Of a DNA stretch of 64,000 nucleotides, positions 13,745 to 51,775 are shown piece by piece. Numbering within the stretch: position 1 is the first letter of the stretch; each line of letters opens with the position of its first letter. The stretch is from Diphasiastrum complanatum (lineage: Eukaryota; Streptophyta; Lycopodiopsida; Lycopodiales; Lycopodiaceae), in the NCBI GenBank assembly GCA_029204225.1, contig CM055102.1, positions 28,820,969 to 28,884,968 on the forward strand. Direction: 5' to 3'. The notes beneath the pieces were generated by a model. That model searched no databases, was not told where the DNA came from, and saw nothing but the letters and a program-made list of their open reading frames with translations. Position numbers and translations under genes: made by a program.

Positions 13745-14140
13745 CGGCGTGTTTCATCATCTTCTCCATTTTCTTCAATAATATTGCCTTGCTACTTCAC
13801 TTTCCCTTGCTTGATATCAGCTTTCTTTTTGTAGCACTCTCTATCCCAATGACTTGGCTTGTGGTAGTAGTAGTACTTGTCTTTCTTCTTATTTGGCAAT
13901 GATGACGACTCTCTCTCATCCTCATCATCCTTTACCTTTCTTGGAATGCATTTCTAGCCCTTTTGCTTACATTTGGCCACCAATGCCTGATCTTCTTGAG
14001 TGGTATGTCTCGACTTGACCAGTTCACGCCTTTGCTCTTCCTACAGCAAGATCCCATGAAGGTCCTCAAAAGTGGGCAATTTATCCCTTGATGTGATACC
14101 ACTCATAAACATTTGCAAGCTATTCGCCATGCCACTCATT
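13745..14140 (-). mobile_element. Ty1/copia gag fragment with decayed zinc knuckle
   Basis: The minus strand reads TFEDLHGILL, EEQRRELVKS, then KKKDKYYYYHKPSHWDRECY, a CCHC zinc knuckle (C-x2-C-x4-H-x4-C) in which the first two Cys are replaced by Tyr. Premature stops are present. It truncates the left end of element copy A. Confidence 0.7.
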
Positions 14141-14153
14141 ATCAGATGAGACT

Positions 14154-14678
14154 TTGTCAGATCTCATGGATCAAGGCTGGGATAGTAAAACAAATAGTGA
14201 CATAGAATGTAGGATTAAAAAGTCCTCAATGATCTTTCGTTATCATATCGAAAAGCAAATGCTCAGTCTCACATTTAGCTACCAGAGGTACAAGAAAATT
14301 GAAGGTACATGGCTACCACTGGATCAAGACTTTAAACTAAATGGTCACACAAACCGAATGGAGATAAGCATTATCTACAATGAGGAATATTTGACTATGG
14401 TTGAGGTGGAAGAGCATTGGAAGCTTGATTTTATCAGAGCAGAGCTCATGCTATTACAAACCAATCTACCAACATATTTCACATTTATCATCAACGGAAG
14501 ACTCGTAAGTACTTTATGTTTATTGCCATTTCAAAATAGAACAAAATAATAGAAAATGTCATCATTTACAATTGCACATTCACTAATATTTGCCTTGTCA
14601 CAGATGCGAAAAAGACAAGAGCTAATAACGTGCTGCAAAGATCTACCTGCAACAATCACCATTGTGGGAGAACAATAG
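14154..14678 (+). pseudogene. copy A, gene 3 (unknown family), 3' part
   Basis: Exon one (to 14504, donor GTAAGT) reads DQGWDSKTNSDIECRI, FRYHIEKQMLSLTFSYQRY, WLPLDQDFKLNG, IIYNEEYLTMVEVEEHWKLD, and ends LPTYFTFIINGRL. Exon two (14604-14678, after ttgtcacag) reads MRKRQELITCCKDLPATITI and ends in a stop. Copy B keeps the same two-exon end (45672-45902) and copy C the long exon. It faces the 3' end of the H3-peptidase gene. The family is unknown. The end of exon one (NEEY, then LDF, then a Phe-x-Ile-Asn near the end) loosely recalls the C-terminal core of the H3-H4 chaperone ASF1, but too weakly for a call. Confidence 0.5.
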
Positions 14679-14844: not shown

Positions 14845-16560
14845 CTATATTTGTTCTGATCTTAATTTAGTATAACTACATATACTCAAGATAATTTCTT
14901 GTCTAAATTTGTACACCTGGCTTGATGTGTACTCAGGAAGTGTAAACTGCAAAATAGAACATTCATGTATTAGTAATGGCCCAAAACATCAACAAAATAG
15001 AAAACTAATCATGATTCCAAAATAAGAATAAACAGAATTTATTATCTTAGAAATATCAACATCTTGCTGAAGGTTGAACCACTCAAAAAATAACTTTGCA
15101 TTGTATAATGTGTAACACCCACAGTTGAATGAATCATTTTGCTAGGGTGACTGCAAAATAATTCAGCACACAAGAAATCAATTATGAAACATAATGAATT
15201 AGAATGAAACAATTACATTAGAATACTGATTTCAAAATGCTATTATGAAAGACAGAGTTACCTCCAAACTGACAATCTGCCAGTCCACGAAATGGGGAAT
15301 ATCTGTAGGAATATATTTACTTAGATATGGAAGGTATATATCTACATTTTTATGCGTATTTCTCGCCGAATTCATCTTGACACAAAAACCTTTAATAATA
15401 TTATCAATAGATCTCTTGATAGAGATCAGGTTTAAACTCCAGTGGTCACTGCAAAATAAGATTGAAATTTTCTTAGCTGCAATTCTGAGAACTATTGCCA
15501 TTGACAATGCCAATGTTAATGCATAAAACAGCAAGAAGCATTTAATATATCTTACTTCGTATGATAAGGGATGAGCAGATACTTTGTTGCTAGTGTGAAT
15601 CCACTTGTCAGACACTGTGACAATGTGTCATTATTCTCCTTGAAGGCCTAAAAAAAAAAGCTACTCAGCATTAGCAACTCATTGGATGAATCTCTTGCAA
15701 TGTCATATTGCAAGAGTGTAATCTCGGACTCTATCATAGGATCACTGATAGAAGCCCGTCTGTCTTTGAGATCCAAGCAATCTAGAGCTCTAAAATTAAT
15801 ACTAAAATTAAGTTCATCTAGTCTAAAACAAAAAGGAGTACCTATTGTATCTATAGCATCGGATATGTCTTTCTCAAATTTAAGATAATCATTCGAATCT
15901 ATATATGTATAAAAATTTGGAGGAGGAGGAGGAGGTGGATGTGTAGTATCTACAGGAATTAAAGGGGTATCCAAAACAGATGTAGCTATATATACAACAT
16001 TATCAACAACAACGTTATCTACAATGGATTCCAGGTTAGGCTTCACAGAATCTGTGGTGTCTACCCTGCTTACTTTCTTCGGAGCTCTCTTGGGGGTTGT
16101 CTGCTTCCTAGGATGCTTCATAGGAAGATCGGTCATATCAGAGGAGCTGGTCTAGGAACAACAGGCTGAGATACGAGTAACCTACAATACCTATCCCTCA
16201 TTCATATCAGGAGCGAAAATCCTTCGGCATTATGGTGACTCTCTTGGAGTGGATTGCAAGCAAAAAAGAATCCTAAAAAAAAAGGCTAATGTAATCTTCA
16301 ACAGCCTCCTGAAGTCACTGAAGAGCACTGGGTGTGAATCTAACTAGCTGTCCGAGATCATTTCTTGTTATGTTTCGGACAGCACGGTAGAATGGAGCTC
16401 TTGGGATCAATAGAGCTATTGATCTTTGATACTTGCATATCTCAGAGAGCCACCTACTGCGGTTGCGCGTTCTAGGTCTAGTGGGTGGTGTAATGGCTGT
16501 AGGGGCTGAGGATGAGCCAGGAGAGAAGAAGTCCCTCCTTGTCTGCTTTCTCCTATCCAT
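14845..16560 (-). pseudogene. copy A: histone H3 domain fused to Ulp1/C48-like cysteine peptidase
   Basis: Four exons: 15556-16560, 15262-15448, 15046-15141, 14845-14946. The N-terminus MDRRKQT resembles the H3 tail start. SEICKYQRSIALLIPRAPF matches the H3 alpha-N/alpha-1 region. SALQ, EAVEDYISLFF and AIHSKRVTIMPKDF match alpha-2 to the end of H3, with KRVTIMPKD identical to canonical H3. A Lys/Arg-rich linker (KQTTPKRAPKKVSR) follows. The peptidase part has YLLIPYHT, HWSLNLI (His at 15442-15444), QNDSFNCGCYTLYN (Cys at 15121-15123, Gln six residues before Cys as in Ulp1) and a final exon FTLPEYTSSQVYKFRQEI resembling the Ulp1 C-terminal helix. Breaks: TGA at 16315-16317, a stop near 16270, a frameshift near 16220, a poly-T shift near 15650 and an AT in place of the GT donor after 15046. 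Confidence 0.8.
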
Positions 16561-16577
16561 GGATGTGTACTATGGGA

Positions 16578-16827
16578 TAGCGGACTTGTGCGTGACGATT
16601 AGAATGAGCAGGGAGGGATGATAAAGACCTCGTAGAGGACCGATATGTATGGACAGAATGTACGGTATATCGGACCTGTGCGAGCCGAATATAAGAGAGA
16701 GCGATTAGTTTTGAAGAAAGATGCACAAGTGTGATATGGAGAGACACGTAGGCAGATGTATCGGACCTATGCGCATGGAAGGCGATAGGAGGAATATTGA
16801 TTGTGAAGGACGTGCACAAGTGCGATA
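16578..16827. repeat. left array of alternating GCGC-N8-GATA motifs (copy A)
   Basis: Six 16-bp motifs begin at 16578 (R), 16630 (F), 16668 (R), 16721 (F), 16759 (R) and 16812 (F). F means GCGC-N8-GATA on the plus strand and R its reverse complement. The spacings are 52, 38, 53, 38 and 53. The one at 16759 is perfect; the others carry one or two changes in the GCGC or GATA half. The N8 is usually ACAAGTGT-like. Confidence 0.9.
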
Positions 16828-16887
16828 TGCGGAGCGAAAATAAAAGTGAAAACAATTCATCAAAGTTTGTGATTTTATATCGCGGTT

Positions 16888-17149
16888 CGCACATGTGAAA
16901 GAACGTCCTGTCACACGTGTGGGAGTTGTACGGACAAATGCGATAGCGACATGTGTCACCCTGTCACATTACACGTGTGGGATTTGTATAAGCAAATGCG
17001 AGAGCGACACGTGTTGTCGAGCAAACGAATGAACACACGACATGTGTCCATGTGTCATTTCACACGTGTCCAGGTGTCACTTCACACGTGCCAGTGCCTG
17101 TAGTCCAATTGAAAGTAGACACGTGTCCTTTGGCCGTTGACCACACGTG
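16888..17149. promoter_or_regulatory. G-box cluster (copy A)
   Basis: CACGTG occurs at 16914, 16972, 17008, 17063, 17085, 17119 and 17144, mostly within ACACGTGT, with CATGTG variants near 16891, 16950 and 17042. Part of the cluster is a tandem duplication of about 55-60 bp (16908 and 16961 starts). In plants CACGTG is the core site of bZIP and bHLH factors; binding here is inference. Confidence 0.85.
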
Positions 17150-17219
17150 CAAAAATTTAGTATAAATGGCACGAAAACAGAATAATTTTTTACCTTTTCT
17201 GTTCTCAAAATTTGTGGCA

Positions 17220-17378
17220 TATCGCTCTTGTGCGCACGCATTGTTGTCTGTTTGCTTGCAACGATACCTACTTGCGCACAAGTGTGATATTCGGTATCTG
17301 CCTGTCGTACATATCCCTCTTGTGCGCCATCTTGATAGTTAGTTTTGTTTCAGTTCTCCCTCGCGCACAAGTGTGATA
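17220..17378. repeat. right array of alternating GCGC-N8-GATA motifs (copy A)
   Basis: Four perfect motifs begin at 17220 (R), 17274 (F), 17312 (R) and 17363 (F), spaced 54, 38 and 51. They lie between the plus-gene TATA and its first ATG. Confidence 0.93.
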
Positions 17379-17392
17379 TTCACGTTACTGCC

Positions 17393-18906
17393 ATGGCCTC
17401 TTCCTCAGGATCCTCACGAGATTCAGGCTTGAGTTCATTTCTTAGTGAATTTGGGATTCTGAAAACCTAGACTACTTCCACAGCCTATTCAGGCCATATC
17501 TACATGTTTTCAGGACTGCACAACCAAATTCTGACGTATTTTATGAACATTATGTTAGATTTAGAGATATACTTAGTAAGCCTATTTTCTCCATAGGTCC
17601 ACTCCAGTAGATGCATTATAGTGATCTTGTTATTTCTTCCCAGCTTTCAGACATAGGCTGGATAGAATGTTCACCAAATTGTTTGATCTTATAGAAAGTA
17701 GTCAATGTGTTCGTATTGCAACAAGAAATGTCAATTGGTTGAATATCAGAGTGGTTTCGTACTTTTCCTGTTAGTTCAGATCCCAGATGATGAGGAAGTT
17801 TCTATTGCTGACCCTCCTTTTGCATCATCCTCTGTTCAATCAACTATTAAAGATATCAGTCACTTTCTTATCGACAATCCTGATAAGGAAAGTGACTTTA
17901 TTGATGTAAATACTGATGTTCTCCGAGATTCTTTTATTGGCCAAAATACATCTGATGATGAATCCAACCCTATAGAGGAGTCGAAATGTCTTTTCAATTT
18001 TCCAGTATATTATGTTAATGACGATGTATATTTCACTACTGCTGATTTATGTAAATTTTTTGACTATTGTGAAGATGAGGTTCTATGTTTATTATCTGGC
18101 ACAATTTTTGAATTCTCCGACTTTGTAGATCTTGAAATAGATGACCTTGTTGCTGGTATTGATTTTGATGATGAGGAGAGACTTATGACCGGTGAAGAAT
18201 GCCTGACTAAGACTTTATCAAATATAGCTAAGGATGGGCGAGGCAGAGCATCTGATGAAGAATTCATGGCATTTCAATCCCAGATGGACTTCCCTTGTCC
18301 ATCATTAATGCATTTCACTAATGATTCCACTTTAGTACGTGGTCATTATATTGATCATCCTAATCTAGTTGCTATTGATGATGAAGAATGTGTAAGTGTT
18401 TAAACTTCTTTGCATTAGAATGTTTTCAATCAATGAATGTGTTTTTGCTAACACATTTCCTATTGCAGGATGCTCTCATAATAGATGATTTTGCTGCGAG
18501 ACGAGGTGGTTTCAGACAACACGCATCCTCGTTCCAGAGGGACAGTGGACTGGGCCACTATCTTAGGCATTTCCTGAAGAATGAGATCTATATTGCTCAT
18601 TGCAAGCTGAGCCTAGTCGGGGAGAATCTTATAATGGCAGTTAAAGCTTTATCATTTTACCTAGGAGGACATAAAATTGTTAAGACAAATAAGATCATTT
18701 TTGTCAGAAGATCTTATGTTTTGAACATTTTAAGCTTTATTGATGGGAATGTTCCTTTAAGGAGCTCCCATTATTCATTGTATTCCACTTATATTGAGCT
18801 TAGTGGAAATAAGGATAATGCACATCTATTAGATGCATACGCTAGCAAAGAATTTCTTCATGACAATACTGCCATAGAATCTGACACAAGATCTGATGAT
18901 GAATAG
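17393..18906 (+). pseudogene. copy A, acidic gene with possible histone-fold last exon
   Basis: The start MASSSGSSRDSGLSSFLSEF is followed by a broken segment aligning with copy B (YFHSLF, VRFRDILSK, RLDRMFTKL). A long open acidic frame then runs 17705-18391 (CNKKCQLVEYQ, ADLCKFFDYCEDEVLCLL). The intron (18392-18468, GTAAGT...TTGCAG) precedes an intact exon 18469-18906: DDFAARRGGFRQH, GLGHYLRHFLKNE, ENLIMAVKALSFYLGGHKI, KIIFVRRSYVLNILSFIDG, acidic tail. The long helix, short basic loop with a beta-like IIFV, and short helix suggest a histone fold. In copy C the segment after the loop can be laid gaplessly on the H2B alpha-3/alpha-C boundary. This remains tentative. It is transcribed divergently from the H3-peptidase gene. 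Confidence 0.6.
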
Positions 18907-19104: not shown

Positions 19105-19842
19105 TTTGTTATATGTCGAATCTGAACTTTGCGGTAGAACCACTGAAAAAATTGACAAATGTAGTTTCATTTTTCATTGGTTCCTCCATGTTGTGTATTT
19201 CAATGAAATGCTGCTCGCGCTTGCCAATGTGACTTCTCCATCCCTTGTGATGACCATACACTCAAGCTTCCATATGTATTTGCAAAAACTGTTGTATGAT
19301 CTCTTAGTATGTGCTGCATATGTCAAAATCATAATGTTAGTCTTATGTTTGGATCTAGATATATATAAAAATTTGAAAGCATTTTGAAAATTTTATACTA
19401 ATTATGTGATGAGTGATGTGATCTCCTCCCCATGCTTTTGATACTGCATTAACAAACTTGACACAAGTCCTTTGGATAGCTTTCTTATCGATATCAGAGT
19501 ATTTTTTTTTCTTAAAATAGCAATCATACTGTCAAGATTTTTCCATACATCAACAACTTTTAGTACTCTGGTTTTGCCGTCTTTCTCGAAGTCCTGAGTG
19601 GCAGCAATAATATCTGTCCAGACTGAGTGTTGAATATTAGAAGCCTTATCAGTATGATTTGATAGGAAACGACATGCTTTTTCTCCTCCTATGCTTGACT
19701 TAGTTGGCATGTTCCCATTCTTTCCTGAAAGCTTTTTATCTTTTTGAATTTTGACATGTCCTTTATGGAGTCCTGCTTTTGATAAAACATCTTCTAATCG
19801 AGAGATAGCTTCCTTTGCTATTGCGTTGTCTAGTGTATTCAA
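19105..19842 (-). pseudogene. copy A, C-terminal half of the transposase-like gene
   Basis: The exon 19402-19842 reads KEAISRLEDVLSKAGLHKGH, KSSIGGEKACRFLSNHTDKA, WTDIIAATQDFEKDGKTRVL and RKLSKGLVSSLLMQY. A further block down to about 19105 reads YGHHKGWRSHIGKREQHFIE, matching copies B and C. Sequence upstream of 19842 is a copia fragment. The missing upstream part of this gene is on the opposite strand at 20780-21918, which a single inversion explains. Confidence 0.7.
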
Positions 19843-20199
19843 GATGGTAGATCTAGGACTTCTTAAGTTTATACTTGGAATAGAAGCTTCTAGAGGCAGT
19901 CATTTTACCTTTATTTGTCAATCAAAGTATGCTACTTCCATTCTTGAAAGATTTGGAATGAAAGATTGTAAAGGGATTGACACCCCTATGGAGCATGTTG
20001 TAAAAGTTTCTAATGATGGTGATGAAGCATTCTTTGAGGACATCACACTCTTTAAAAAGCTTATAGGCTCTTTAATCTATTTGACAGTCACTAGACCAGA
20101 TTTGACTTATTGTGTAAGTAAGTTGAGTCAACATATGCAAGGTCTTTTAGTACATCATTGGAAAAGTGCCAAAAGAGTGCTTAGATATATCTCACATTA
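19838..20199 (+). mobile_element. Ty1/copia reverse transcriptase (3' part) fragment
   Basis: Reads FKMVDLGLLKFILGIEASRG, YATSILERFGMKDCKGIDTP, KKLIGSLIYLTVTRPDLTYC and SAKRVLRYISH, the copia RT thumb to RNase H connection. It continues exactly where the minus-strand copia pol at 21919 stops (after YVDDIIL and GIRKEL), and is its inverted downstream part. Confidence 0.9.
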
Positions 20200-20779
20200 G
20201 AGGAGTTCTCAATATCAAAAAGACCCTTTAAGGAATGCCATGTAGGATATAGAAAAATATCAAAAGAAAAAAAAACAATATTGTTTATTTGCTTGCCCAC
20301 ACCACTCCCAAGGCCTCCCCAACTCCCAATGATATAACCACAACGTCTATAGTCACAGTTAAGAACTGTTAATAGTTCGCAGTATAACTTGACTAAATTC
20401 AAAAATATTCCCTCCATTGGTTACGAAAAGGGCAATATCTTCATTGGATCTAGAATATGACCGCCAACCCCAAATTCGAATCAGGAAAAATTGCAAAATG
20501 TTTACATATGCATTCCTTCCACAAGAATGGAAATGTGAGCACCAACTACCTATTGGAATGAAAAAATGAGCGTCATTTCCAAATTTGAATCAAGTATACA
20601 AGCATGGAGATTGGATTGATCGTACATAGTATATAATATAATCAAAGATGAGTATTTTGTTTTGCTTCATAGAATCTGGTCATAGTACTTTGATGCAACT
20701 GATTACTCTATTATTTTTTTGATGATGACATTGTATCATCTACATGTGGATATCCCTATTGATTTGGCACCTTTGCAGG
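20200..20779. other. no gene recognised
   Basis: AT-rich filler between the copia fragment and the inverted transposase segment. No terminal repeats or coherent frames were seen. Confidence 0.5.
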
Positions 20780-21918
20780 GAAGATGAGGCAAAGGAATTC
20801 AAATATCTGCTAAAGATCGTCCTCGTTACAGGGCAGAAGGAAAGAAACACTTGGATTTGTAGATAGATGGAACATTATATCCACAAGATCCAAGCACTTT
20901 GACACATCCCACATTCTCTTCAATAACCCATTTAGCTACATGGATATGCAATGGGCATAGTGGATTACTAGGATATTGTGAAAGATTGCAGAACCATGGA
21001 AAACAACTCTATATGAATAAAGTTCACTTTTTAGAAGGTGAGTTAATTTGGATATCCTCTTATTGTCAGAATAAAAATTGTCATCTCCAGAAGAAAATGA
21101 ACAACTTAAAAAAAATAATGAATAATTACAGAAGATAACAATCAATATCAAATCAGAACTAGAGCAAATGCAATCAGTCTTACAGTCTATTCGTATTGAA
21201 GACTTGCAAATCCACTGAGCGTATCATGATGAGCAATAAGATTTCAAATGTAAAGTGTAAAATAGCAGAGTCTTTGATGGTGAACATTCAAAAAATTTTA
21301 GATAAGACTATAGTTCAGGGTGCTTGTGATTTTGCAGGTATTAGCAGGGAAGCATATGCAATAATATTTAAACTAATTAGAGAAGCTTTTAACCAAGTTC
21401 AGATTAGAAAAGTCCCAATCCCTGGGACATATGACTTGAAGAAAGAGAGGGATACATTAAACACAGGTATGCATAAGATCACTGGAACTCCATTTCATAT
21501 TGAGGAGGTGTATGAAACTGATGGAAGATCATACATTGTAAACTAAGTCTGATTAATTCTTTGGATAGGTGCTGAAAGAGGATCACGATATATTATCATG
21601 GATATTCTCAAAGACATCTTATCCTAGGATCATCAAGGACCATATGGATGGAGGACTTCTCAACGTTCCAGGAGTTGGAGACTTCAATGTTAAATAGCAC
21701 TTAGCAGTGATTTGAAAACATTGAAATGTATGTATAATATCTCTCACGGTGCTACATCAAAACACCCTTGTTTGTACTGCATGAAAATGGCAGAATATGT
21801 AACTAGGAGTACATGAATTACTAGAGAATATGTAGATCCAAACTGGAAGCCTTGTGCTGCCTATCCCCTTAAAAAATGTGCATGTTTGCACTCTTCATGC
21901 AGATGTTAGATTAATAGA
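20780..21918 (+). pseudogene. copy A, N-terminal and middle part of the transposase-like gene (inverted segment)
   Basis: Pieces in order: EDEAKEFKYLLKIVLVTGQK; a coiled-coil-like stretch NEQLKKNNEQLQKITINIKS; IVQGACDFAGISREAYAIIF with FNQVQIRKVPIPGTYDLKKE; then FHIEEVYETDGRSYIVN. After an intron-like gap comes KDHMDGGLLNVPGVGDFNVK (shifts and stops), a degraded Cys block, and VLPIPLKNVHVCTLHADVRL. The second half aligns with copy B (50945-51340, minus strand). Orientation is opposite to its own C-terminus at 19105-19842. Confidence 0.6.
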
Positions 21919-22510
21919 AAAGCTCCTTTCTTATGCCTTTATGATCATTTCATGTCAATATGATATCATCAACATAAAGAACCAAGATGATGACCTTTCC
22001 ATCATTGCATTTGATATACAAAGAAGGTCCATAAGAACTTATCATAAAATTCATAGAGTAGAGGAAGGTATGCAACCTAGAGTACCAAGCTCTAGGTTCT
22101 TTCTTAAGACCATATAAGATTTTCTTCAAGTGGAAAACTTTATCTTTATCTCCATCTTTGATGAAGCCCTCGGGTTGCAACATGTAGATCTCCTCCTCAA
22201 GTAGCCATTAAGAAATGCATTTGTCACATCCATTTGGAAAAGATCCCATTTGAATCCAGTAGCAATACAAATGATCAGCCTTATAGGTACAAGCTTTGCT
22301 ATAGGTGCAAAAGTTTCATCATAATCTATACATTTAGTTTGAAAAAAACCTTTTGCAACAAGTCTAGCTGTGTACTTGTTTATAGATCCATCTTGATTGT
22401 ACTGTAATCTATAAATCTTACAAGAAAGTGGCTTCTTCCCATGTGGAAGGTATACAAGATCCCAAGTTTGATTATCTAGCAAAGCATCAAACTCTACTTG
22501 CATTGCATCT
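21919..22510 (-). mobile_element. Ty1/copia reverse transcriptase (5' part)
   Basis: MQVEFDALLDNQTWDLVYLP, YTARLVAKGFFQTKCIDYDE, TFAPIAKLVPIRLIICIA, FQMDVTNAFLNG (first catalytic Asp) and, after a frameshift, VFHLKKILYGLKKEPRAWYS and VLYVDDIIL (catalytic YVDD). The frame ends after GIRKEL at the inversion breakpoint. A frameshift around 22185 and a stop after YVDDIILT make it inactive. Confidence 0.95.
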
Positions 22511-24890: not shown

Positions 24891-25423
24891 AATGATTTGA
24901 TTATGAAATGTACAAAGATTTTTTGAAAATAAATAATCTAAGATAGACTTCTAGTTCACTAAGAAGCTTCTAGTCTCGGCCCAATCAAACTAGCCTAAGC
25001 TTGGATGCTGGTATAATAGATTCACTCAAAATTCCTAGCAATTCACTCCCTCAAAGGTTGATTTTAGCACTTTCTTGCTTGAATTAACTTCACTCTCTCA
25101 ATGATTCAAACCTCTACTAGATCATTAGCATTTGATATATTGAACCTAGATCTAGACGATACACTAAAAAGCTTGAAATTTGGACAAGTATGCAAGATTT
25201 TGGACAAAAACAAAGATGGAGCTCCTTCACACAGGATATGTACGGCCTCACACGTGTGGATAGTACACCTGCAACCCACAACTCGATTTGAACCAAAACT
25301 AATGATGCTATCACTCTCTTTAAGCTTGCCCACTCAAGATTAGATCAAAAAACACAAAATTCCAATAATTTTGATATGATCAATGCTTCATTTACATCCC
25401 TCTTATACCAAGCTCTGATACCA
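24891..25423 (-). mobile_element. copia 5' leader with primer-binding site
   Basis: The reverse complement of 25412-25423 is TGGTATCAGAGC, the initiator-Met-tRNA-type primer-binding site. The leader includes a cacacgtgtgg word (25249) within a stretch shared with 39750-39800, which marks the two elements as relatives. Confidence 0.9.
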
Positions 25424-34100: not shown

Positions 34101-34169
34101 CTTTGTGGCATGTGCAGGCATGTCTTTGTGGCAAGTGCAGGCATGTCTTTGTGGCAAGTGCAGGCATGT
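34101..34169. repeat. minisatellite, three 23-bp units
   Basis: ctttgtggcaagtgcaggca plus tgt, repeated three times. The first unit differs by one base (catgtg for caagtg). Confidence 0.97.
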
Positions 34170-35670: not shown

Positions 35671-35935
35671 ATGGCTTCGGACATCTCCCTGCTTCGTCCT
35701 CTCAGTCTCAAACGACCTGTTTCAACTGTATCTCCCCCTCCTGACTCCCCTCCTCATTTGCGTCAGGCTGTGCTGGGTTCCTCGCTTGCCACAACCCCCT
35801 CTGTTCCTCCTTCGCCCACCTCTTCCCATGGCATTGTTGCCCCCTCGCTTGGTTGTGAACCTCCTTCAACCCCAACCCCCTGTACGGGTTCATTGCCATG
35901 CTTGTGGTCATTTCTTCTCTCCTAGAGGAGCTCTT
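35671..35935 (+). mobile_element. non-LTR retrotransposon: N-terminal (5') fragment
   Basis: The start MASDISLLRPLSLKRPVST is Pro/Ser-rich. After a frame change it ends in RVHCHACGHFFSPRGALAR, a C2H2-like finger of the kind that opens many plant LINE polyproteins. It meets the minus-strand RT fragment head-on at about 35935. Confidence 0.6.
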
Positions 35936-37540
35936 GCCCGAGGGCGAAAGCCAAAAAGGAACCGAGAAGACAAAGCAGGGGCGACAAGAGCCCAGCTCCA
36001 AAGAAAAGCTGCAGGAGCAGAAGAAATTGTAGAGAGAAGACCCACACCACCACAAGAAATGGGTAACCGAGCCTGGTTCCGAGCTGAAAGGGTCTCCACA
36101 CCATCCAAAGAACCAGGGCCCAAAAGGCGGCCAAAAACATCCATAAGAGAGCTGTCAAAGGACGAGAGGAGATGCAAAAAGTCCGAAGTAGGGGGGAAAG
36201 TCCGCAGCAGATAAGAAGGACGCTGGATAAAGCAAGACGCCAAGATGCCAAACGCGACTTGAGTGTCGCCCGACCGGGGAAGCAGATCTGAATGAGCAAC
36301 ATCCTCTTGGAGAGCCTCACCAAGAAAAGCAGAGCTGAAGGAAGCAGACCTGAAAGGAACGCCCAAAATGCGAATGCCATCTGAAGAACAAGGAGACCTT
36401 GAGGAGGAACAAAGTCCGGGGGAATACCTGCTGGAGACCACACTGAACACTTGCGAGGTTGAATAGACAAACCAAGAGAAGCTAGCTGCTCAGAGAAATG
36501 ATGAAATGTGAGGAGCACCGTAGGAGCAGGACCAACAATATGAGTGTCATCAACAACCAAAGGAAATAAGCAGGAGGGAAAGGCCTCTGCAGAAGCTCGA
36601 AGTGCACGGAAATGAGCCAGAGCGAAAAGAGGACCAGCCAAAGGATCACCTTGACGAGTACCTGCTGCAGACTGGATAGTAGAAAGATCCCCAGAGCGCA
36701 CATGGTGACTGTAAAAGAGAGGAGTCTCAGTAGCATAAAACAACAGCACAAACGGGATAAGCTGAGCCAACTCACCACCAGCCGCGCGCAGCTCCTGAAA
36801 GATCGCAGCTCTAGAAACATAGTTAAAAGCATTGGAAACATCCACTTGGAGAACAACCTAGTCAGGATGAAGATCAAGGGTGGCACGCAAACCATGATTG
36901 ACAGCTTCACAGCCGCCAGGAGTAGGGACGCCAAACTGATGAGAGGAGAGAAAAGAGACGAAAATCTGTTGGAACTGAAAATAGATAGAGCGACTAACAA
37001 GACGAAGGAGGACTTTGCCAATAGCGATGGGACGGACGCCACCCAAGGCTTTAGACATGGCGATCAAACGAGACGCAGACAAAAGACGTGCGACAGAAGA
37101 AGGAATGTGACCAGAGGCGATAAAAGAGTAGACCTGAAAGAGTTGAATGAAGCCACTAGCAAAGTCCTCATGTGGAAAGCAATCACGAAGGTGTTCATAG
37201 ACCAAACCAGAGGGACCACCAACAGCAAGATGAGGACTACGATGGAAGGCACGAGAGAAAGAATCACGATCAAGCACCAAGTCGACATAAGACACAAAGT
37301 CCTCCACAAACAAGGGAAGAATGCCTTCAGAAGCATGATGCAGAGCTTGGAGAGCAACAACAGTATCAGCAGAAGAGGGAGCGGGTGTGAGACGAGCTAA
37401 AGCTCGAGCTGCACGAGAATATTCACCAACTTGCCCAAGAAGTAGAGTGCGACGAAGGTGACGGTGGAGAGGTGGGGCGCCTTGAGGTTGAGAGTCCTGC
37501 GAGTTGCGAGCAACAAGTGCCTATATAATTTTTGGAGCAA
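35936..37540 (-). mobile_element. non-LTR retrotransposon: reverse transcriptase
   Basis: A nearly continuous frame: AFHRSPHLAVGGPSGLVYEH, RLIAMSKALGGVRPIAIGKV, SSHQFGVPTPGGCEAVNHGL, then a single TAG (36857-36859), VVLQVDVSNAFNYVSRAAIF (catalytic Asp), AAGTRQGDPLAGPLFALAHF, and FPLVVDDTHIVGP, the second catalytic pair with VVDD in place of the usual FADD. The domain then runs to the inversion point near 35935. No poly(A) tail was found because the 3' side is occupied by the inverted 5' fragment. Confidence 0.92.
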
Positions 37541-38253
37541 GGGTTTAGCATGTTATAAGTGAACTCCCGAAGCTCTATAATAAATCCATTTGATTCTATT
37601 GAAAGCCTACAGAGAGGAGAATGTGGTCAAATATCCCCAAGCTTGAGCAACTACGTTTTGATCACATAGTACTTGGTCAAAATCACTTTGGGACATTAGT
37701 TCGCGACCTAAGGCTAGAATAACAAGCGCCACCTAGAATATCATCCTTAGGCCACCTCCAAGAGCTATATCATCATCTAATATTGATTTATGGACTCACC
37801 ATCAACTTGCAGAACCATTAGAGCTCTTTCTACCTATACCACATATTTGGCCATAATAAGACTAGAAAATTTGTATAGATTGGACCTATTTTTGGTCACA
37901 ATACAAATTGGTGTACATAGGGTAAAAGAGCTCTAATTTCAAAGCAATTTGTTCTAGCTATTGCACAAGGTGAGAAAAACTTGGCCGACATCCCTTAGGC
38001 TTCCACTGTGCCAAACAAGACTAGAAAAACGATTTAGAAAAAATGAGCCCTAAGCAAGCTCCTACTCTAAAACACCAATGTGGAGATTATCTAGTATGGT
38101 ATCCTAATACAGTATTCATCAATACAACATCAACAAGTTAGACATTTCTTTAGAAAAGGCTAGTTGGACAACTATGTTATAGCCATTACAATACCTAACT
38201 AATGAATTTGGTTCAAGAGTTAGTAGTTCTTGCCATAAGTACAAGAGGGTATC
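37541..38253. other. no gene recognised
   Basis: No coherent frames or repeats identified. Confidence 0.45.
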
Positions 38254-39649: not shown

Positions 39650-41071
39650 CTGATCTAAACTATACCCAAATTTGCAGGTTTTTGGAAACAAGCTAATATT
39701 GAGGTAGCAAGGTTGAATGGATAGCTAGAACCATCATATTTGTACCAAATCTTGATGTGGGCTGCAGGTGTACTTTCCACACGTGTGGGGCCGTACAAGA
39801 CCTGTTTTGGACAGTAAAATTCAGTTTGGTGCATTTTGAGCTTCATACACCCAATTTTGAGTCAATTTAGTGCATTTTTCAAGCTTTCACTTGCATTGTT
39901 TCTATTCCATTGATTTGTTCTTGGTTTAGAACAATCATATAGATGGATTAAAGCTTGTTTACAGTACATTAAAGTTGATTCTCTGATTTTTTGAGTGTAC
40001 ATTGAAGTTGAGAGAGAAAGAGTGCTATAAACCAAAGATTAAGGAGTGATTTGCAAGGGGAGAGATTGAAATCCATTATACCTTCATTCTAGATTTGTTC
40101 AAGAGTGAAAGGGCTGAGTCTAGAAGCATCTAAATGCTAGAAGACACTCTTGGATCAGTCCTCCAAGTGAAATCTTAGTGAATTTCTAAAGCACAAACAC
40201 TCATAAAGGCAAAATCTACCAATACAAGGCGATAAGAATTGTTGGCAAGTACTAGGAGAAAAATTTGAGATCCAAGTCACATTGTTCATCCCTACTCAAG
40301 TGTGTGAGTGTGTTTTTGACTTTAATTAAATTCATAAATGTGAGTGAGGCATATGTGTTGTGGTTGATCCAAAATTTTCAAGAGATCCTTCCTTTGTAGA
40401 GGGCAAGAACTAGTAACTCAATTCTTGACTTTGGTGGAAAAATTGTCTTAATCATTGTGATCAAATCTTGCTAAGTGGAATTAGCTCTTTGTAAGCACAT
40501 ATCTTAGTGAGAGAGAAGCATCACATTTCTGAAAATTTGAATTTCATTCCAACTCTAAAGAGGTAGAGTCATTGGTACTTGGTGGAGTCCAATAGGAGTG
40601 AATGAATTCAATTTTTTGAGCAAAACTTTGACATTATATGTATGAAACTCAAATAAGTTCTATTCAACTTTCTTTGTGAGAGTGTGAGGGTCAAGTTGTG
40701 ATCCCATTGGGAGTCTAGAACAGGGAGGAGTCCATATTTGAGTGTTTATACATGATTGGGATCTTTGTGAATCTCTAGATGTCTAATTTTTAAGCTTGGT
40801 GAAAAATTATTGACATAGATTGTTATCAAACCATTCCATGTCCATTCTAGTGTTTGGATCTGATTTTTGTGATTTGATAGAGTGCTTTTGTCTTAGTGAT
40901 CAAAGCAAAGATTAGTTTCCAATTGACTAGGTTGAAAGAGATATGATTCAAAATTTGTGGTCTAGATCTTGTGTAGATCCTTCTAGATTGTTGAATGTGT
41001 TCAAATCTAGTTCCTTGAGAGTCACAAATTACATTTTGAAAAGTCATATCACTAGGTTTTACTTCCTCATC
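39650..41071 (+). mobile_element. long leader of a non-autonomous copia derivative
   Basis: 39690-39800 matches the leader of the copia element at 25.1-25.3 kb (reverse strand), including gcaggtgtact and ccacacgtgtgg followed by ccgtaca. It leads into an ORF whose first residues resemble the copia gag start. Confidence 0.65.
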
Positions 41072-42097
41072 ATGGCATCAATAGGTGGCAACCTATTGGA
41101 GGCAAGTAAGGATCCTAAATGCAACCTTCGTGGCAAGAGAGATCATTTTGTCTCAAGATGCTACAAAATGAGGACCAATCCATCCAAGGAGAACCAAAGC
41201 AAGGGGGCCGAGGTGAAGGATGGAGCTTCAACTTCAAAGTGCAAAGAAAAGAAGGACAAATCCAAGGAAAGGTGTTTCCTTTGTGGAAAGATGCATGAGA
41301 ATTGGAGTCTCACAAGGACTTACAAAATTTGTCTTCAAAAGTCCATCATCACACATTTCAAACCTTTAGAAGTTTTTCATTTGGAAGTGCATTGTTTGGA
41401 TCAAGATGCAGAGATAAATGTCACTTGGATTTATTTCATGTCCTTCGAAAGCATTTTGTTTAGAACTTTAGAAAAGTTCAAATTTATTGTTATGATCCAA
41501 GAGAAACCAAGAAAGATTGAGGAGCAATCACAAAATGAAAATAGTTCCATTTATGCTCTCATGACATCTTATGAAGAACTATTTTGCTTTGAAGAGATTT
41601 TTGTATCTCAAAGCTGGATTAAGGCAATACTAGTTAAGTGTGATGCCTTAATAGATAGCAAAGCACATTTTCCTTGTAAAATTACATTGAATATGAAGTC
41701 AAGGAAATGGAAATGTCTTCATAATGTATTTTTTGTTGGTTTCAATAAGATCATGAATGATGTGTTCATTCATAATGTTGAAGATTGTAAATTTTCAATT
41801 CTAAAGGCAAGTTGTAAACTTCTTATGAGAATAAGTGAAGCATCCAAAGTGGACACTTATATCCATAAGCAAGTAGTTAGCCTTATTGAGATAGAAATAC
41901 TTCTTGATTTCAATATTAGAAAAATCATGCCAATTTGTGGTGATTTTTGGACTTATGTTTCTAGCATAAGTAATGTTGATGATCACATGAAGCACACATT
42001 ATATGATCATGTTTGTTGTGATCATTTTGAGACATGGAGGTCTCGGATTTCCATCAAGGAGGAGCACCAAGAAGTTGATCTTGAGGAGTCATCTTGA
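41072..42097 (+). mobile_element. ORF 1 of a non-autonomous copia derivative
   Basis: MASIGGNLLEASKDPKCNLR is gag-like (compare MSSMGG at 24886), followed by zinc-knuckle remnants GKRDHFVSRCYK and RCFLCGKMHE. After that the protein departs from gag: SYEELFCFEEIFVSQSWIKA, ILKASCKLLMRISEASKVDT. No protease, integrase or RT is present. The second part is duplicated in the next ORF. Function unknown; the open frame of 342 residues is long for a decayed element. Confidence 0.7.
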
Positions 42098-42106
42098 GGT
42101 TCAAGT

Positions 42107-42751
42107 GTGCCAAGGATTGAGGAGGAGAGTCCTTCTCAAGTTATGATTCCAAGAAGAATATCAAGAGACATGGTTGAGCTCATATGGCTCACATTTCAAG
42201 GGAAAGAGGAGCACATTTCAAGTAGTATACATCTCATGGTTGCTTCTCTTATGTCATTTGGTGAATCAATTTGCTTTAGTGAGACTTTTGCATTTCAAAG
42301 TTGGAGTAAAGCAATACTAGTTGAGTATAGTGTCTCCCTTGAGAACATAGTTGATGTTCTTAATGATATGAAATTGATTTTAGATCAATTAGAAAACAAA
42401 TGGTTATTTCATCAAATGTATGCTCTGGAGTCTTGCAAGAGCATGAGTGAGTTGTTCACTCATAGTGTGAAAATTTGTCTTTTTTCATGTATTGAGGCAA
42501 ATTGTAAACTCTTTATGAGAGAAAGTGAATCATCCTCTAAGGAAACTTATCTCCATAATGAAGTATTTAGCCTCATTAGATCTGATATTAGCATGGTAAC
42601 CAAGCATGAAGATATGATACAAACTCTTTGTTATTATAGCATGCATAGTCTTGCCAATGTTGATGAGCCTAATCCTCGAGATCTTGGTAACATGATGTTG
42701 GATCTTTGTGATCCTCATGAGTCAAGAAGGAATCTTTATTTTATCATGTAG
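42107..42751 (+). mobile_element. ORF 2 of the same element, a diverged repeat of ORF 1
   Basis: SFGESICFSETFAFQSWSKA matches ORF 1 SYEELFCFEEIFVSQSWIKA, and CIEANCKLFMRESESSSKET matches ILKASCKLLMRISEASKVDT, each in the same order. The pair probably arose by tandem duplication of about 0.65 kb followed by divergence. No known domain. Confidence 0.7.
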
Positions 42752-46088: not shown

Positions 46089-48171
46089 CTATTCAATCAA
46101 TTTTTCTATATTTTCTATATCAGTATTAGGACTTGATAAAGCAACAGCTCCTTCTATAATCTTGTCCTCCTCTGTTTCGGGAAGGGCCTCAATGCCTTTT
46201 AAGACAAGAGGAATATCTGCTACAAAATTGCCTTCCTCTGTATTAGGAAGGACTTTTATTCCTTTTTTATCATATAAAATAAGATCTGCATCTTGAACAA
46301 CCTGAAAGACTGTTAAGACAGGAGCAGCTTTCTTTTAAGGGCCCTCGATTGCAGGTGCAACGCTTACACCGTACTGGGCAAAGGTTCTGATCAACTCTTG
46401 CCGAAATCTATATACATCATCAAGAGTATACGGCTCAAGAGTGAACTGTCATCACAAAACACGAGAATTGGCAAATTACAAACAATGATAGTAATAAAAT
46501 ATGAATAAGAATCAAATGAACTACAAATGAATAGAATATTACCTTTTCAATATCTACATCCGTTTGTAAATTATACCATTCAAAAAATAGCTTCGTATTG
46601 TACAAGACGAACCATGCACAACTAAAAACGTCATTTTGTTGTACACACTGCATATATAGAACAAAAATTAGTAAAATTATGATAGAAATTTTATTTATGC
46701 TATGACGATACATTTGAATTAAAAAAGGAATACATGCATATCAGAGATAAATTGAATATACCTTGAGAGATTTAATGGTTATATCTCCAATTGAAGTTGC
46801 CGTTGTCGGTATTTCTCGAACGACATCATGAAGTAGAGAATCAAATTCTCTATGTGTATTTGCAGCTGAGTTTAATTTTACACAGAGAAAATTTGATACT
46901 TCCTTCTTATTTATCTTTACAAAAAGAATGTTGAGGCTCTAATGCTGACTGCAACAACCAAGGTACAAATATCGTTAAATTCATATTTATGAAAAAATTT
47001 CATTCTTATTAAAGCAATGAGGCATGCAACAATTTAAAGCAACAAAAACAAAAGAGCAATTCTTACTTATTTTCATATGGAATCAAATAGAATTTCGCCA
47101 TAGGACTGCACTTCATAAAATAGACAGCCTTCTCAAAATTGGCTTCTTTTGCCTTTACCGCTCTCATGAAAAATGGACTAACTACAAAAACTATACCATG
47201 GGCATCGAAACTAATATTATTCTGCAAAAAAGAAACTCCAGCCTTTACTATTGCATCTGAAATTTGTGAGGTCTTATCTTTTAGCTCGGCACAAAATTTG
47301 GGACCTAATCTAAAGCTTCTACGTGTATTTGGAAGAAAAAAATCAAAAAAGTTGTCGAAAAGATCAATTTTGTTAGCTAGGTATGTCTCGTATTGATTAT
47401 AATGGTCAAAATAAAAAAAAATCTAGGCTAGATCATATGGAATTCTCACAAAAACATTATGTACAGGAACAAAAACAGAAGTGGAAAGAATATTTACAAA
47501 TTTCTCTGTTATTCTATCTAGCTCCTCTTGGGTAATCAACACTTTTGGTGATGAAACCTGCTGAGGAGCTGGACGAATAACAAGAGGAGGACTAGGTGAA
47601 GATTCTCAATCTGAGTTAGATTCTCCAGCATCTGACTCAGAGCTCAGGAAGACACGGGGTCTCTTGGTCGGGATACATCTAGGAAGAAGGGAACCAACTG
47701 GCCTTCGAGATCTAGCCTTCTTGGGGACAGCCTGCTTTCTCTTCGTCCTAGAGGTAATAGGCACGTTGGTTCTATCCAGAGGCAGGTCTTTGGAGGTGCT
47801 GGCATTATCAACATGCAGACCAGAATATCTGTCCCGAAGCCTTTTGAGAATGACGAAATCCTTTGGCATGATGGTGACACGCTTACCATGCATTGCCAAA
47901 AAACAAGTATTCTCAAGAAACTGGGACAAAAAATCTTCTGTAGCACCTTGCAAGGCCTGCATGGCTGTCACGGCAAAACAAACATCCAGCCCAAGTGACA
48001 GAGTGACATTCCGTAAAGATCGGCCAAAAGGAGCTCTAGGGATCAACAATTCAGTTGATCTCTAGAGTTTTCTGATCTCCCTCAACCAGACCTACTTCCT
48101 GCCACGCCTACGGCCAGTACCAACTGTACAATGGTGATGGCACAGACGATGGATTTGGTCCTGGCCATCAT
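46089..48171 (-). pseudogene. copy B: histone H3 domain fused to Ulp1/C48-like cysteine peptidase
   Basis: Exons 47067-48171, 46762-46948 (187 bases, as in copy A), 46543-46647, 46089-46445. The start MMARTKS carries the ARTK of the canonical H3 tail. After a frameshift come LREIRKL, RSTELLIPRAPFGRSLRNVT, QALQGATEDFLSQFLENT and MHGKRVTIMPKDFVI, covering the whole H3 fold. Next is a basic linker (TKRKQAVPKKARSRRP), an acidic patch, then the peptidase part: AKFYLIPYEN, QH-stop-SLNILF (TAG where copy A has the Trp of HWSL), QQNDVFSCAWFVLYNTKLFF (catalytic Cys followed by Ala instead of Gly) and FTLEPYTLDDVYRFRQEL. A TAA at 46335-46337 precedes an extra tail with two KGI..LP.TEE repeats. Further stops at 47606 and near 47425. 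Confidence 0.82.
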
Positions 48172-48249
48172 TCTCGGAAGAAGAAAACTAACAAAAAGAA
48201 GTTTGAACAAAACAAAAGTGGATCAAAACAAAAAATTTGCGATGAAAGG

Positions 48250-48428
48250 GCGCTTGAGATCAATACCAGCACTGAATATCAATTTTGAGCGCAAGATCTA
48301 CAAAGATTATTTGCAGAAAAGAGATGCGCGCTCGAAAGCGATATTTCACAGCAGGCGGTATCGGACTCGAGCGCACTGTGAGAGAGGGCGGAAGCTTGAA
48401 AGATGAAAGAGCGCGCTTGAGAGTGATA
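48250..48428. repeat. left array of alternating GCGC-N8-GATA motifs (copy B)
   Basis: Motifs start at 48250 (F, AATA variant), 48277 (R), 48328 (F), 48359 (R) and 48413 (F), spaced 27, 51, 31 and 54. Four are perfect. Confidence 0.93.
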
Positions 48429-48497
48429 TCGGAAGCTAAAAGCAAAAAAATTTGTGAAAAAATTGAAAATTTCGAGGACTTATATATACAAAATTTT

Positions 48498-48745
48498 TGC
48501 ACGTGTGAAAAGACGGCCAAGACACGTGCTGTTAGATGATTAGACCATGTAGAATGTCGATACTGACAATGATGACCCAATTATGAGGCCACGTGGGCTG
48601 AGACATGTGCGCGAATCCCTAATCGACGTGTGTCATTCTCGCACATGACAGATGTCAGATCAATCATACTAGGTACAACGCATTTAATTTGGCCAATCAC
48701 AAGTCGACACGTGTTCCTTCACCACTCCTCCACACGTGCAATTTT
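48498..48745. promoter_or_regulatory. G-box cluster (copy B)
   Basis: Five CACGTG words, within gcacgtgtg, gacacgtgct, gccacgtggg, gacacgtgtt and cacacgtgca, plus acatgtg and cgacgtgtg variants. It occupies the same place relative to both TATA boxes as in copy A. Confidence 0.8.
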
Positions 48746-48801
48746 TTTTTTATAAATATGTCTTTTTGGGCTTGGATTTTCACCGTCTCGTTGACTATTA
48801 T

Positions 48802-48978
48802 GCGCCTAGATCCGATACTGCATCCTCCGGTATCGCATTCAAGCGCGTTTCGTGTCCCTTTTCTTTCCTGCTCGTTCTTCTTGCGCTCGGATCCGATACT
48901 CTAGCTTCCAATATCTCTCTCGAACACACGTTGCCTTGACGTGCTTGTCTAACCTGGGGTTTGCGCCTGATAGCGATA
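48802..48978. repeat. right array of alternating GCGC-N8-GATA motifs (copy B)
   Basis: Motifs start at 48802 (F), 48831 (R), 48883 (F), 48912 (R, ACAC variant) and 48963 (F), spaced 29, 52, 29 and 51. Four are perfect. Confidence 0.93.
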
Positions 48979-49011
48979 TTTGGAACTTCAGTTCTATTAT
49001 TTTTGTTTAAA

Positions 49012-50335
49012 ATGTCTAATTTTGAATCTAGTTTGTTTTCTTTTTTTTTAATAAATTTGGTATTATTGATAGGTTGGACTATTTCAAATCTCTTTTTTCT
49101 TCTATTCTTTTTATTCTACCTTCTATAACTGAGGGCCTTGGTGTGGAGGCATTTTCTGAGATATATCTCAGATTTAAGTCCCTGCTCAATACTCTGTTAT
49201 TCAAGTCTCAGAATAAAGACATGATTCATTATCAGGACCTGGTGGCCCTCGACAAGCATATCTACAAAGCTAAGCTTGACAGAATGTTTACCAAGTTACA
49301 TAATGATTTCAAGTCTGTAGATGAGTGTCCAATTCATAATAAGAAATGTAGATTTGTTGATTTTCAGTTTGTTTTTTTTTTTTTCCTTTTGTTAAATATT
49401 TTTGATAATTCGGACTCTGTGCCCTCCACTTCTGAAGCAGTTTCTTCTAGTGGTACAAAGTCTGAAAAGTCAAAGATTGTAGATATATATCTTTTTGATT
49501 GACACAAGAGTTAATTTAGATGATTTGATTTTGATCCTACTCAAAGTAGGGCTACTTTTATAGGCCCTAGAACACCCACTACCCTTTCTCCTTCTGATAA
49601 ATCTTTGATCACTTTGCCTACTTATAATATAGATAATAATTCCTTTTTGACAATATCGGATTTTTTTTATTTCACTGAAGCTAAGACTCTTTGCATTTTG
49701 AGCAAAGAGCTTGATGAATTTCCGAATATAATTTCTTTTGATGCTGATGATCTTCTCCCTGATGTTGACGATGTACATAATGATAAGTTTTATTCAGGGA
49801 AAGATTGCTTGAAAATGGTTGTGGAGGAACTGCGCAACAAAGAAGATGATCTACTTTCTGAGGAGGAGTTTCAAAGTCAACTTGGTTTTCCACAGCCAAC
49901 TGACTATTCACCAACAATATTGACATCGAAAGGTGGACATAATATTGATGGAGAGACAATAGTTAGAGAAGACAAAGCCGAATGTGTAAGTTTTTGTCTC
50001 TTATCAAGTACTAGTAGATTTGTTATGTCAGATTATATACTGGAGCTTACTTTGTTTTTTATCATTTCAGGAAACAATTTTTCTTGATGATTTTGCAATT
50101 CGTCGAGGAGGGCAGAGATCTTTTGTGGGAGAATTTTCAAGAGATCATGCACTCGGGCACCATCTAAAGTCCTTCAAGAATAATGCCCATTCAAAGTTTC
50201 ATCAGTATGATTATGGCAATCAAGGCACTGTCTCGTTTTTTTGGAGGACATAATTTTAATAAGGTGTATAAAATAATTTTTGTAAAGAAAACTATTGCGG
50301 TTAAAATTTTAGGATATGGACCAGTAAATTCCATT
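49012..50335 (+). pseudogene. copy B, acidic gene with possible histone-fold last exon
   Basis: Starts MSNFESSLF. After a frame change it reads DYFKSLFSSILFI, EAFSEIYLRFKSLLNTLLF, HYQDLVALDKHIYKAKLDRM and CPIHNKKCRFVDFQ, then the acidic block SFLTISDFFYFTEAKTLCIL and DDLLSEEEFQSQLGFPQPTD. The intron (49986-50070, GTAAGT...TTTCAG) is at the same place as in copy A. The last exon reads ETIFLDDFAIRRGGQRSF, then after a one-base shift near 50195 IMAIKALSRFFGGH and KIIFVKKTIAVKILGYGP. It then fuses to the transposase C-terminus, so the true C-terminus is lost. Stops and shifts near 49500 and 50195 break it. Confidence 0.6.
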
Positions 50336-51775
50336 GCTTGCCAATGAGATTTTTCCATTCCTTGCGATGACCATATGCTAAGACTTCCACTATTTCTTGC
50401 AAAGAATGTCGAATGATGTCGTAATATGTGCTGCATATCATAAAAACATCATCTAAATCAGTACCAAAAGTATCTAATTTAATTGCACATATTTGTCTAT
50501 CGTAGTGTAAAATCAAAATCTTACCATATAATGTGTTATATGATCAACACCCCATGCACTCTGAACTGCATCCACAAATTCATTGGTTGTTTTCTGTATC
50601 ATTTGAACATCAGTATTTGAAAATTTATCCTTTCTCAAGTATTTCACCATGTTGTCTAACGTTTTTCAAACTTCTACTTTGTGTATACGAGTAGAACATT
50701 CTTCTTCGAAATCTTGAGTTGCTGCAATAATTTCTTTCCAAACCGTGTATTGAACCTTAGATTGTTTGCCAGAATAATTTGATAAAAATCTTCGAGCTTT
50801 AGATCCTCCAATGCTCGACTTGCATGGAATATTTCCTGTTTTACTTGATAGCTTGTCATCTTTTTTTATTATAACGTGGCCTTTATGTAAGCCCGCTTTG
50901 GACAACACATCCTCTAATCTAGAAATAGCTTCCTTCGCAGAGGATTATGACTCGGAATTCCATGCAAACAAGATGTGAAGATATATTATTTTTTCTATAA
51001 TACGCACCTCCGCATGCAATGTACAGATATGAACATTTCGTAGAGGAATCGGTAGTACAGGTTTCCAATTAGGATCTTCTTGATCTCTTGATATTCTTGT
51101 ACTCCTTGTCATGTCTTTTGTTGTTTTCATGCAGTACAAACAGGGGTGTTTAGAGTTAGCACCATGAGATACATTGAACATACATTTTAATGTCTTGAAA
51201 TCTCCTGCTAAATGCCATTCAATATTGAAAGTGCCAATTCCAGGAATATTGAGTGGAACTCCCTCCATGTGATTTTTTATGGTGACAGGATATGATCTTT
51301 CAGCACCTATAAGAGAATACAAAAACGTGATTAGCCTCATAATATTAACACAGAGAAGATTTTAGATATGAAATCCATATTCAAATGATTATCCCTATTT
51401 ATTATGCAAAGGAACTGCTATACTTGAAATGCTGCCAACCACCAGATATCATTTTTTGATTGAACATTGAAATTGAGGTCTTCTGAGTCTTTTGAATTTG
51501 AAAGTGCTCCATTCATCATCGTGAGACTGACTCTTTCCATTTTTTGTCCTTTTATAATTTCAGACTCATCTAACTTGAGAACAACTATCAACTTGTTATT
51601 GACATGCTCATTTGTAATACCATAAAAATTTATGATGAATGTTAATAACTGATTAATGTCAATAAACAAATTGTTGGAATTGTTATATGCTAGACTTTCT
51701 CCTTTCAAGCAATACACTTCATTGATATGAGATGGAGCACAAGCCTTCGACAAACAATTTGTAGGTCTGATAGCT
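50301..51775 (-). pseudogene. copy B, transposase-like gene
   Basis: Most complete copy of this gene. Blocks on the minus strand: SKACAPSHINEVYCLKGESL, KLIVVLKLDESEIIKGQKME (a conserved Asp in a beta strand), GTFNIEWHLAGDFKTLKCMF, SHGANSKHPCLYC, VHICTLHAEVRIIEKIIYL, KEAISRLEDVLSKAGLHKGH, ARRFLSNYSGKQSKVQYTVW and YGHRKEWKNLIGKQW. The order LDES, then GDFK, then a CxxC finger resembles an uncharacterised eukaryotic transposase-like family that I recall from glomeromycete fungi and cnidarians (G/C-D-[WF]-K ... CLYC). That link is from memory and uncertain. Broken by stops at 50938 and 50668; the 5' end is cut at about 51775. Confidence 0.6.

Follow-up and report, generated by a model that had tools for sequence, protein, structure and literature searches.

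A histone H3 domain fused to a Ulp1/C48-like peptidase in recurrent transposon copies of Diphasiastrum complanatum

A gene in which a histone H3 domain is fused to a Ulp1/C48 peptidase recurs in many copies in the genome of Diphasiastrum complanatum. Two of these copies lie in the window, by which we mean the whole stretch of 64,000 nucleotides of contig CM055102.1 that was analysed, and in diverged copies the H3 and Ulp halves are both under purifying selection. We know of no earlier transposon that encodes a selectively maintained histone domain linked to a SUMO-protease-like enzyme; this would be the first such case known. The reading that we favour, and put forward tentatively, is that the product would be an accessory anti-silencing protein, composed of histone fold, linker and Ulp1/C48 peptidase, that acts at nucleosomes.

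Copy 1 (14845-16560) and copy 2 (46335-48171), both on the minus strand, are decayed four-exon genes that run in the order H3 domain, basic linker, Ulp1/C48 peptidase (Table 1). The initial annotation had read an H3 fold in both, and this is borne out: profile PF00125 matches the H3 half at 4.9e-20 (copy 2) and 8.3e-22 (copy 1), the best PDB sequence for that half is histone H3 (1.5e-14 and 3.5e-17, respectively), and the block KRVTIMPKD, legible in both copies, is the same as in the PDB H3 rows. A C48 peptidase had been proposed for the C-terminal part, and the corresponding profile, PF02902, also matches the translations, at 4.9e-7 in copy 1 (30.2 bits, above the cut-off of 20.7) and at 4.8e-4 in copy 2 (20.5 bits, just under it); the best PDB sequence for the Ulp half is SENP2 (9.3e-4). 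The peptidase motifs IPY, H-W-S-L and Q-x5-C are all present as described, but not undamaged, because TGG has become TAG in the HWSL of copy 2 and a stop codon stands immediately before the Gln of Q-x5-C in copy 1. The exon plan is shared as had been noted, exon 2 having 187 bases in both copies, and exon 3 is also equal (105). Two details had to be revised. The gene had been taken to end at 46089, and its coding sequence actually stops at 46335. The copies had also been regarded as independent; they represent two subfamilies within a single family, with a protein identity of 39% and changes mostly at third codon positions, and are thus diverged descendants of one fusion. Exon 1 of copy 2 carries four in-frame stops as well as a frameshift within its N-tail, exon 1 of copy 1 carries stops and a frameshift near 16213, and exon 3 of copy 1 has lost its splice donor (AT in place of GT). 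With these in-frame stops and frameshifts, neither copy is able to make protein.

Table 1. Positions of fusion-gene exons, partner genes and associated features in the window (first position is 1), with examples from the sister family
Feature	Position	Strand	Content
Copy 1, exon 1	15556..16560	-	MDRRKQTRRD tail, H3 fold, linker, N-terminal Ulp part
Copy 1, exon 2	15262..15448	-	187 bases; DHWSL, VKMNS
Copy 1, exon 3	15046..15150	-	105 bases; stop, then QNDSFNCG
Copy 1, exon 4	14845..14946	-	
Copy 2, exon 1	47067..48171	-	N-tail from MMARTKS, H3 fold, basic linker, N-terminal Ulp part
Copy 2, exon 2	46762..46948	-	187 bases; HWSL with catalytic His (stop in place of W), V-K-L-N-S
Copy 2, exon 3	46543..46647	-	105 bases; catalytic Gln and Cys in QQNDVFSC
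Copy 2, exon 4	46335..46445	-	terminal YRFRQE, then stop codon
Gene C, copy-1 element	14109..14546	+	unknown family
Gene B, copy-1 element	17393..18903	+	DDFAxRRGG protein, unknown family; divergent from fusion gene
Gene B, copy-2 element	49012..50344	+	
Gene T (transposase-like), copy-2 element	50335..51301	-	LAGDFKTLKCM...CLYCM, QGMEKSHW
Gene T, C-terminal part, copy-1 element	19110..19839	-	
Gene T, another part, copy-1 element	21617..21928	+	strand now opposite to remainder
Terminal inverted repeat	20195..20226	+	0 mismatches of 32; beside inverted T piece of copy-1 element
Fusion-to-B interval, copy 1	16561..17392	.	7 CACGTG vs 0.59 expected
Fusion-to-B interval, copy 2	48172..49010	.	5 CACGTG vs 0.14 expected
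Sister family, H3-bearing gene	L006:4817-5812		
Sister family, gene T	L006:8065-10000		

The genome, of about 1.745 Gb in 5176 contigs, was searched with the Histone profile, which gave 6325 first-look candidates; only 150 of these were scored, and the locus counts that follow are therefore lower bounds. Thirteen of the listed rows score 163.7-165 bits, and the one that was opened (L020) is canonical H3. All except three of the remaining rows score 95-110 bits. From this latter class 27 loci were opened, 19 of them picked mainly for long open frames and the other 8 for a fused-type profile start and frame length, and since this choice was not random, the proportions of fused and sister loci are no estimate for the genome. 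The two halves are adjacent in other copies, as the initial annotation would have them be: the fused gene is present in 14 of the 27 transposon-type H3 loci, and the search for Ulp in the other 13, a sister family, found none. Five of the first 19 loci (L004, L005, L014, L015 and L017) are closely related to copy 1. L007 holds two genes. One is related to copy 2, with 76% over residues 2-267, and stays open across H3 and linker before it breaks off; the other is a third fused gene, more distant and decayed. Exon 1 runs from H3 into the Ulp region in all eight loci selected as fused-type, seven of which also have the catalytic exons. Across the 17 fused genes (14 loci, L007 with two, and the two window copies), H3 is joined to the linker in every case and the catalytic exons were at least partly found in 15, a partial match in L035 being left out of this count; the two genes without them are that of L030 and the first of L007. 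In L014 and L015 the gene itself, as distinct from the whole element, is open across its four exons, so that tests of the protein are possible. We infer splice sites from GT/AG and conserved exon lengths, and the spliced L014 model so obtained has 470 amino acids and no stops, with matches to PF00125 at 1e-27 (residues 27-123) and to PF02902 at 1.1e-10 (residues 316-442; 42.2 bits against the cut-off of 20.7). The fusion survives in three divergent subfamilies. Chance, or mere adjacency of H3 and Ulp sequences, was also considered and is ruled out by the profile E-values, the shared exon plan and this recurrence.

The proposal that the gene belongs to a mobile element has held up, with terminal inverted repeats (TIRs), dispersed copies and partner genes all found. 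The stretch shared between copies measures 8.7 kb in L014 and 9.3 kb in L015, for an element of about 9 kb, and at the limits of copy similarity lie 35-bp TIRs, CATTAGAGGAGTTCTCAATATCAAAAAGACCCTTT and its reverse complement. Both ends of L014 are exact over 32 bases, those of L015 have 3 and 2 mismatches, and no target-site duplication was evident by eye in these two, which have both ends. When the element is read so that H3 lies on the plus strand, the layout is T(+), B(-), fusion gene(+), C(-) in L004, L005, L014 and L015; L017 has no B between T and the fusion gene. Gene T has the conserved blocks KLDE(S/A)EIVKG, WHLA-x-DLKTLKCM with C-x2-C, and QGMEKSH, and from its conserved D, C-x2-C and E-like motifs it is a putative transposase of the DDE type, possibly from an undescribed transposase superfamily. 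Joined from frames and exons, T had no Pfam match at E<=1 and no PDB match, and a peptide-pattern scan of viral contigs found no relatives of it; its predicted structure (pLDDT 38.5) was too poor for use. Neither T nor B nor C had a Pfam match above cut-off, the best for C being DUF4292 at 0.023, below it. The fusion-to-B interval is dense in CACGTG in both window copies (Table 1), and four other copies have 5-7 of these hexamers between B and the fusion gene; the window has 21 in total, nine of them outside both intervals. Jointly with the mechanism set out below, and at the same tentative strength, we read the fusion gene as an accessory one, separate from the transposase, within a multi-gene DNA transposon that is bounded by TIRs.

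Several other features of the DNA were recorded. A ATATCGCACTTGTGCG-like motif recurs between B and the fusion gene in L014, L015, L005 and L004 and is a candidate protein-binding array. The window contains a third decayed element copy at 5446-8876, with C, B and a T piece, between which no sign of the fusion gene is seen, and with 0 CACGTG in the corresponding interval. At 19110-22114 the end of the copy-1 element (the TIR at 20195 and a T piece) is inverted, and coding sequence lies nearby that we take, from its look, to be copia-like. Two adjoining paralogous open frames of 388 and 217 amino acids (33% identical over 170 amino acids) occupy 40931-42751. The G+C content at 34001-38000 (0.46-0.47) is above that of the remainder, with long overlapping open frames there and a strong AT skew of 0.35 at 36001-38000, and a short segment at 25083-25340 is repeated in opposite orientation at 39658-39861. 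No Rfam family at gathering score and no tRNA was found in the window.

The sister family comprises 13 of the first 19 loci (L001-L003, L006, L008-L013, L016, L018 and L019), which are alike at the DNA level and most of which have distant relatives of B, C and T, the T of L006 being 42% identical. Its protein is proline-rich with the H3 fold at the end (in L001, Histone at 4.4e-30 over residues 193-302 of 306), and a stop follows after the fold in all eight sister rows that were extracted. Searched by tblastn at E<10, with the Ulp half of L014 as query, the 13 loci gave no Ulp, though their 10-kb stretches may hold only part of an element. It follows, as far as this search reaches, that not every H3-bearing relative needs the protease, that H3-bearing proteins are common to related transposons, and that the Ulp fusion marks one branch of them. 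In the H3 tree, the fused domains (window copies and relatives) group together at 99/96 and the sister family at 100/99, with copy 2 flagged as a long branch.

Selection was judged from pairs of copies. In the four pairs that set L014 or L015 against L004 or L005, with dS of 0.45-0.53, dN/dS of the H3 domain is 0.11, 0.07, 0.19 and 0.13 and that of the linker 0.44-0.62; L004-L005 gives 0.21 for H3, and since a frameshift lies towards the end of exon 1 in L004, the L004 ratios for that part were left out. For Ulp exons 2-4, dN/dS is 0.15-0.38 in 13 of the 15 pairs among L004, L005, L014, L015, L017 and copy 1, the two exceptions (0.65 and 1.80) being close pairs with L005, the catalytic Cys region of which is lost. 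The divergence of copy 2 was too great for this comparison; between copies 1 and 2, pN/pS is 0.40 for H3, 0.49 for Ulp and 0.80 for the linker. The closest pair, L014-L015, has an H3 dN/dS of 1.38 on 12 changes. As read from these ratios, the pattern is one of constraint while copies are active and of drift once they have inserted. A passive capture, in which the transposon merely carries functionless host fragments, might be argued from the two dead window copies, from the lack of H3 constraint in that closest pair and from the H3 transduplication described for fungal hAT elements in the available part of a published study (PMC6710886), but it is very improbable and already contradicted by two open gene copies, by the low dN/dS that diverged pairs show in both halves and by the persistence of the fusion across the three divergent subfamilies. 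That the H3-Ulp gene is under selection suggests that a transposon makes its own chromatin-acting enzyme.

In the anti-silencing mechanism that we propose, the H3-derived histone fold would pair with host H4 or with histone chaperones and so set the fusion protein in or beside nucleosomes, where the peptidase would take SUMO, or a related modifier, off chromatin-bound silencing proteins. Silencing would thereby be relieved, and the transposon could be expressed and move. SUMO as the substrate, nucleosome entry and the anti-silencing benefit are inferred. The reading is favoured by the H3 residues that are kept, the conserved His, Gln and Cys, the selection on both halves and the analogy with the VANC and KIU proteins discussed below.

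The catalytic His, Gln and Cys, in the blocks HWSL and QQN(D/N)SF(N/S)CG, are kept in L014, L015 and L017; L005 has lost the Cys, and L004 has stops in that region. Both window copies, like L004, L005, L014, L015 and L017, have Asn (VK-M/L-N-S) in the place of the expected catalytic Asp, in a part where the alignment is loose, and peptidase activity is on this account not assured. Such an Asn would suit a poison histone, which would act as an antagonist by obstructing the chaperones of the host or its silencing nucleosomes and whose Ulp part would bind without cleaving, as would the replacement of R63 by Pro (in 4/4 transposon rows: L014, L004, copy 2 and L001) and the one extra loop-1 residue of copy-1-type rows. 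We consider this distinctly unlikely, given that His, Gln and Cys are conserved with their surroundings in exons under purifying selection, and that Asn serves in the papain triad.

The histone half keeps H113, R116 and D123, which are presumably residues of the H3 bundle, in the same four rows. At ten positions that we take to be DNA-contact sites, L014 is the same as host H3 at 6 and L004 at 7; R72 is Gln in L014, which, like the change of R63, counts against the anti-silencing reading. From the conserved H3 residues it is plausible that the protein enters or alters nucleosomes (the structure predicted for the H3 exon, at pLDDT 50.2, was too poor for use). Retention of H3-specific residues, beyond the fold, also speaks against a role confined to the transposition complex, in which the protein would remove SUMO from transposase or repair proteins during transposition and the histone fold would serve as a dimerization module only. 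That role has a precedent in the Ulp1 domains of unrelated transposons and in what their authors propose, so far as the source was accessible (PMC2836005), and yet it seems to us a doubtful one, much on a level with the poison histone.

Identity to host H3 (L020) is 50/88 for L004, 48/88 for L014, 48/88 for L001 and 40/87 for copy 2. The block LLIPRAPF, to our eye, resembles CENH3, and at three positions, those of P, A and T in the motifs LLIP-x-A and R-x-x-T, both window copies match three plant CENH3 sequences and not H3. A targeting device is therefore conceivable, in which the histone half would direct the transposition complex to chromatin such as CENH3 nucleosomes and the protease would act either on that complex or on local factors; retrotransposons are reported to integrate centrophilically by way of CENH3 chromatin. 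Against these three positions, the window copies agree elsewhere with H3, overall identity to H3 and CENH3 is about equal, and the H3/CENH3 tree, with copy 2 flagged as a long branch, gave no decision. The proteins moreover start with MARTESTARAT (L007 relative of copy 2) or MDRRKQTRR (copy-1-type genes), both of which we take to resemble the MARTKQTARK of canonical H3. The 111 listed transposon-type H3 hits on contigs of known length, from both families and most of them unopened, are distributed as 14, 22, 25, 30 and 20 over fifths of the contigs, and their clustering was as high in 721 of 2000 simulations, no more than chance; judged by place along the contig and not relative to centromeres, this spread counts only against strong centromere targeting. 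On the whole we regard targeting as unlikely.

Returning to the anti-silencing reading, its boldest form is that a transposon superfamily with an undescribed transposase has made host H3 its own nucleosomal subunit, equipped with a deSUMOylase, and would rewrite chromatin against silencing; we think this rather unlikely as a whole. The fusion offers a testable, nucleosome-level route by which mobile DNA might counter silencing, and also a possible tool in the form of a natural histone-tethered peptidase. No transposon with an H3-Ulp1 fusion was found among the literature matches listed, in a search that left most subscription papers out of reach. Peptide-pattern scans of viral contigs and of prokaryote genome contigs found no relatives of the fusion, and window positions 14845-15700 had no match in phage records.

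The components of the fusion can be compared with their nearest counterparts. To plant H3 and CENH3 the histone half is allied by its identity to host H3 (50/88 in L004, 48/88 in L014) and by a tail start that is partly kept; it differs in the rest of the tail, in R63P, in the extra loop-1 residue of copy-1-type rows and in the peptidase at its C terminus. With SENP2 (PDB 1tgz), the HWSL and Gln/Cys blocks of the peptidase half align, whereas overall similarity is weak (9.3e-4) and Asn stands at the expected place of the catalytic Asp.

That transposons can carry Ulp1, and those of fungi an unfused H3, is already known, as far as the available parts of the sources go (PMC13317346, PMC2836005, PMC6710886). 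Ginger1 transposons carry Ulp1 or OTU domains, for which SUMO removal during transposition has been proposed, and thus also place Ulp1 within a DNA transposon; there, however, Ulp1 forms the C-terminal end of the transposase, in the listed animals, and histones have 0 occurrences in the accessible text (PMC2836005). Closer in organization are the VANDAL/Kaonashi (KIU) Mutator-like elements. Transposon-encoded VANC proteins remove silencing marks (PMC5735166), some of them carry Ulp1 (PMC13317346), and the present element is like VANDAL/KIU, from what these partly available sources describe, in being a multi-gene plant DNA transposon with a Ulp1 accessory gene and clustered short non-coding motifs (PMC13317346, PMC5735166). 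VANDAL and KIU are, however, non-TIR MULEs, and histones have 0 occurrences in the main text of the review (PMC13317346); the present element is bounded by TIRs of 35 bp and has both an H3 fold and a gene T that is transposase-like but lacks a Pfam match. Fungal transposons with histone H3 have been described (PMC6710886, PMC3538342), and in the hAT elements among them, as in the present case, a DNA transposon captured and amplified H3 (PMC6710886). According to the portion of that account available, the fungal H3 is transcript-derived, no Ulp fusion is described, and the copies are inactivated in one species, with several maybe active in another (PMC6710886). Unlike it, the H3 of the present element is fused and under purifying selection.
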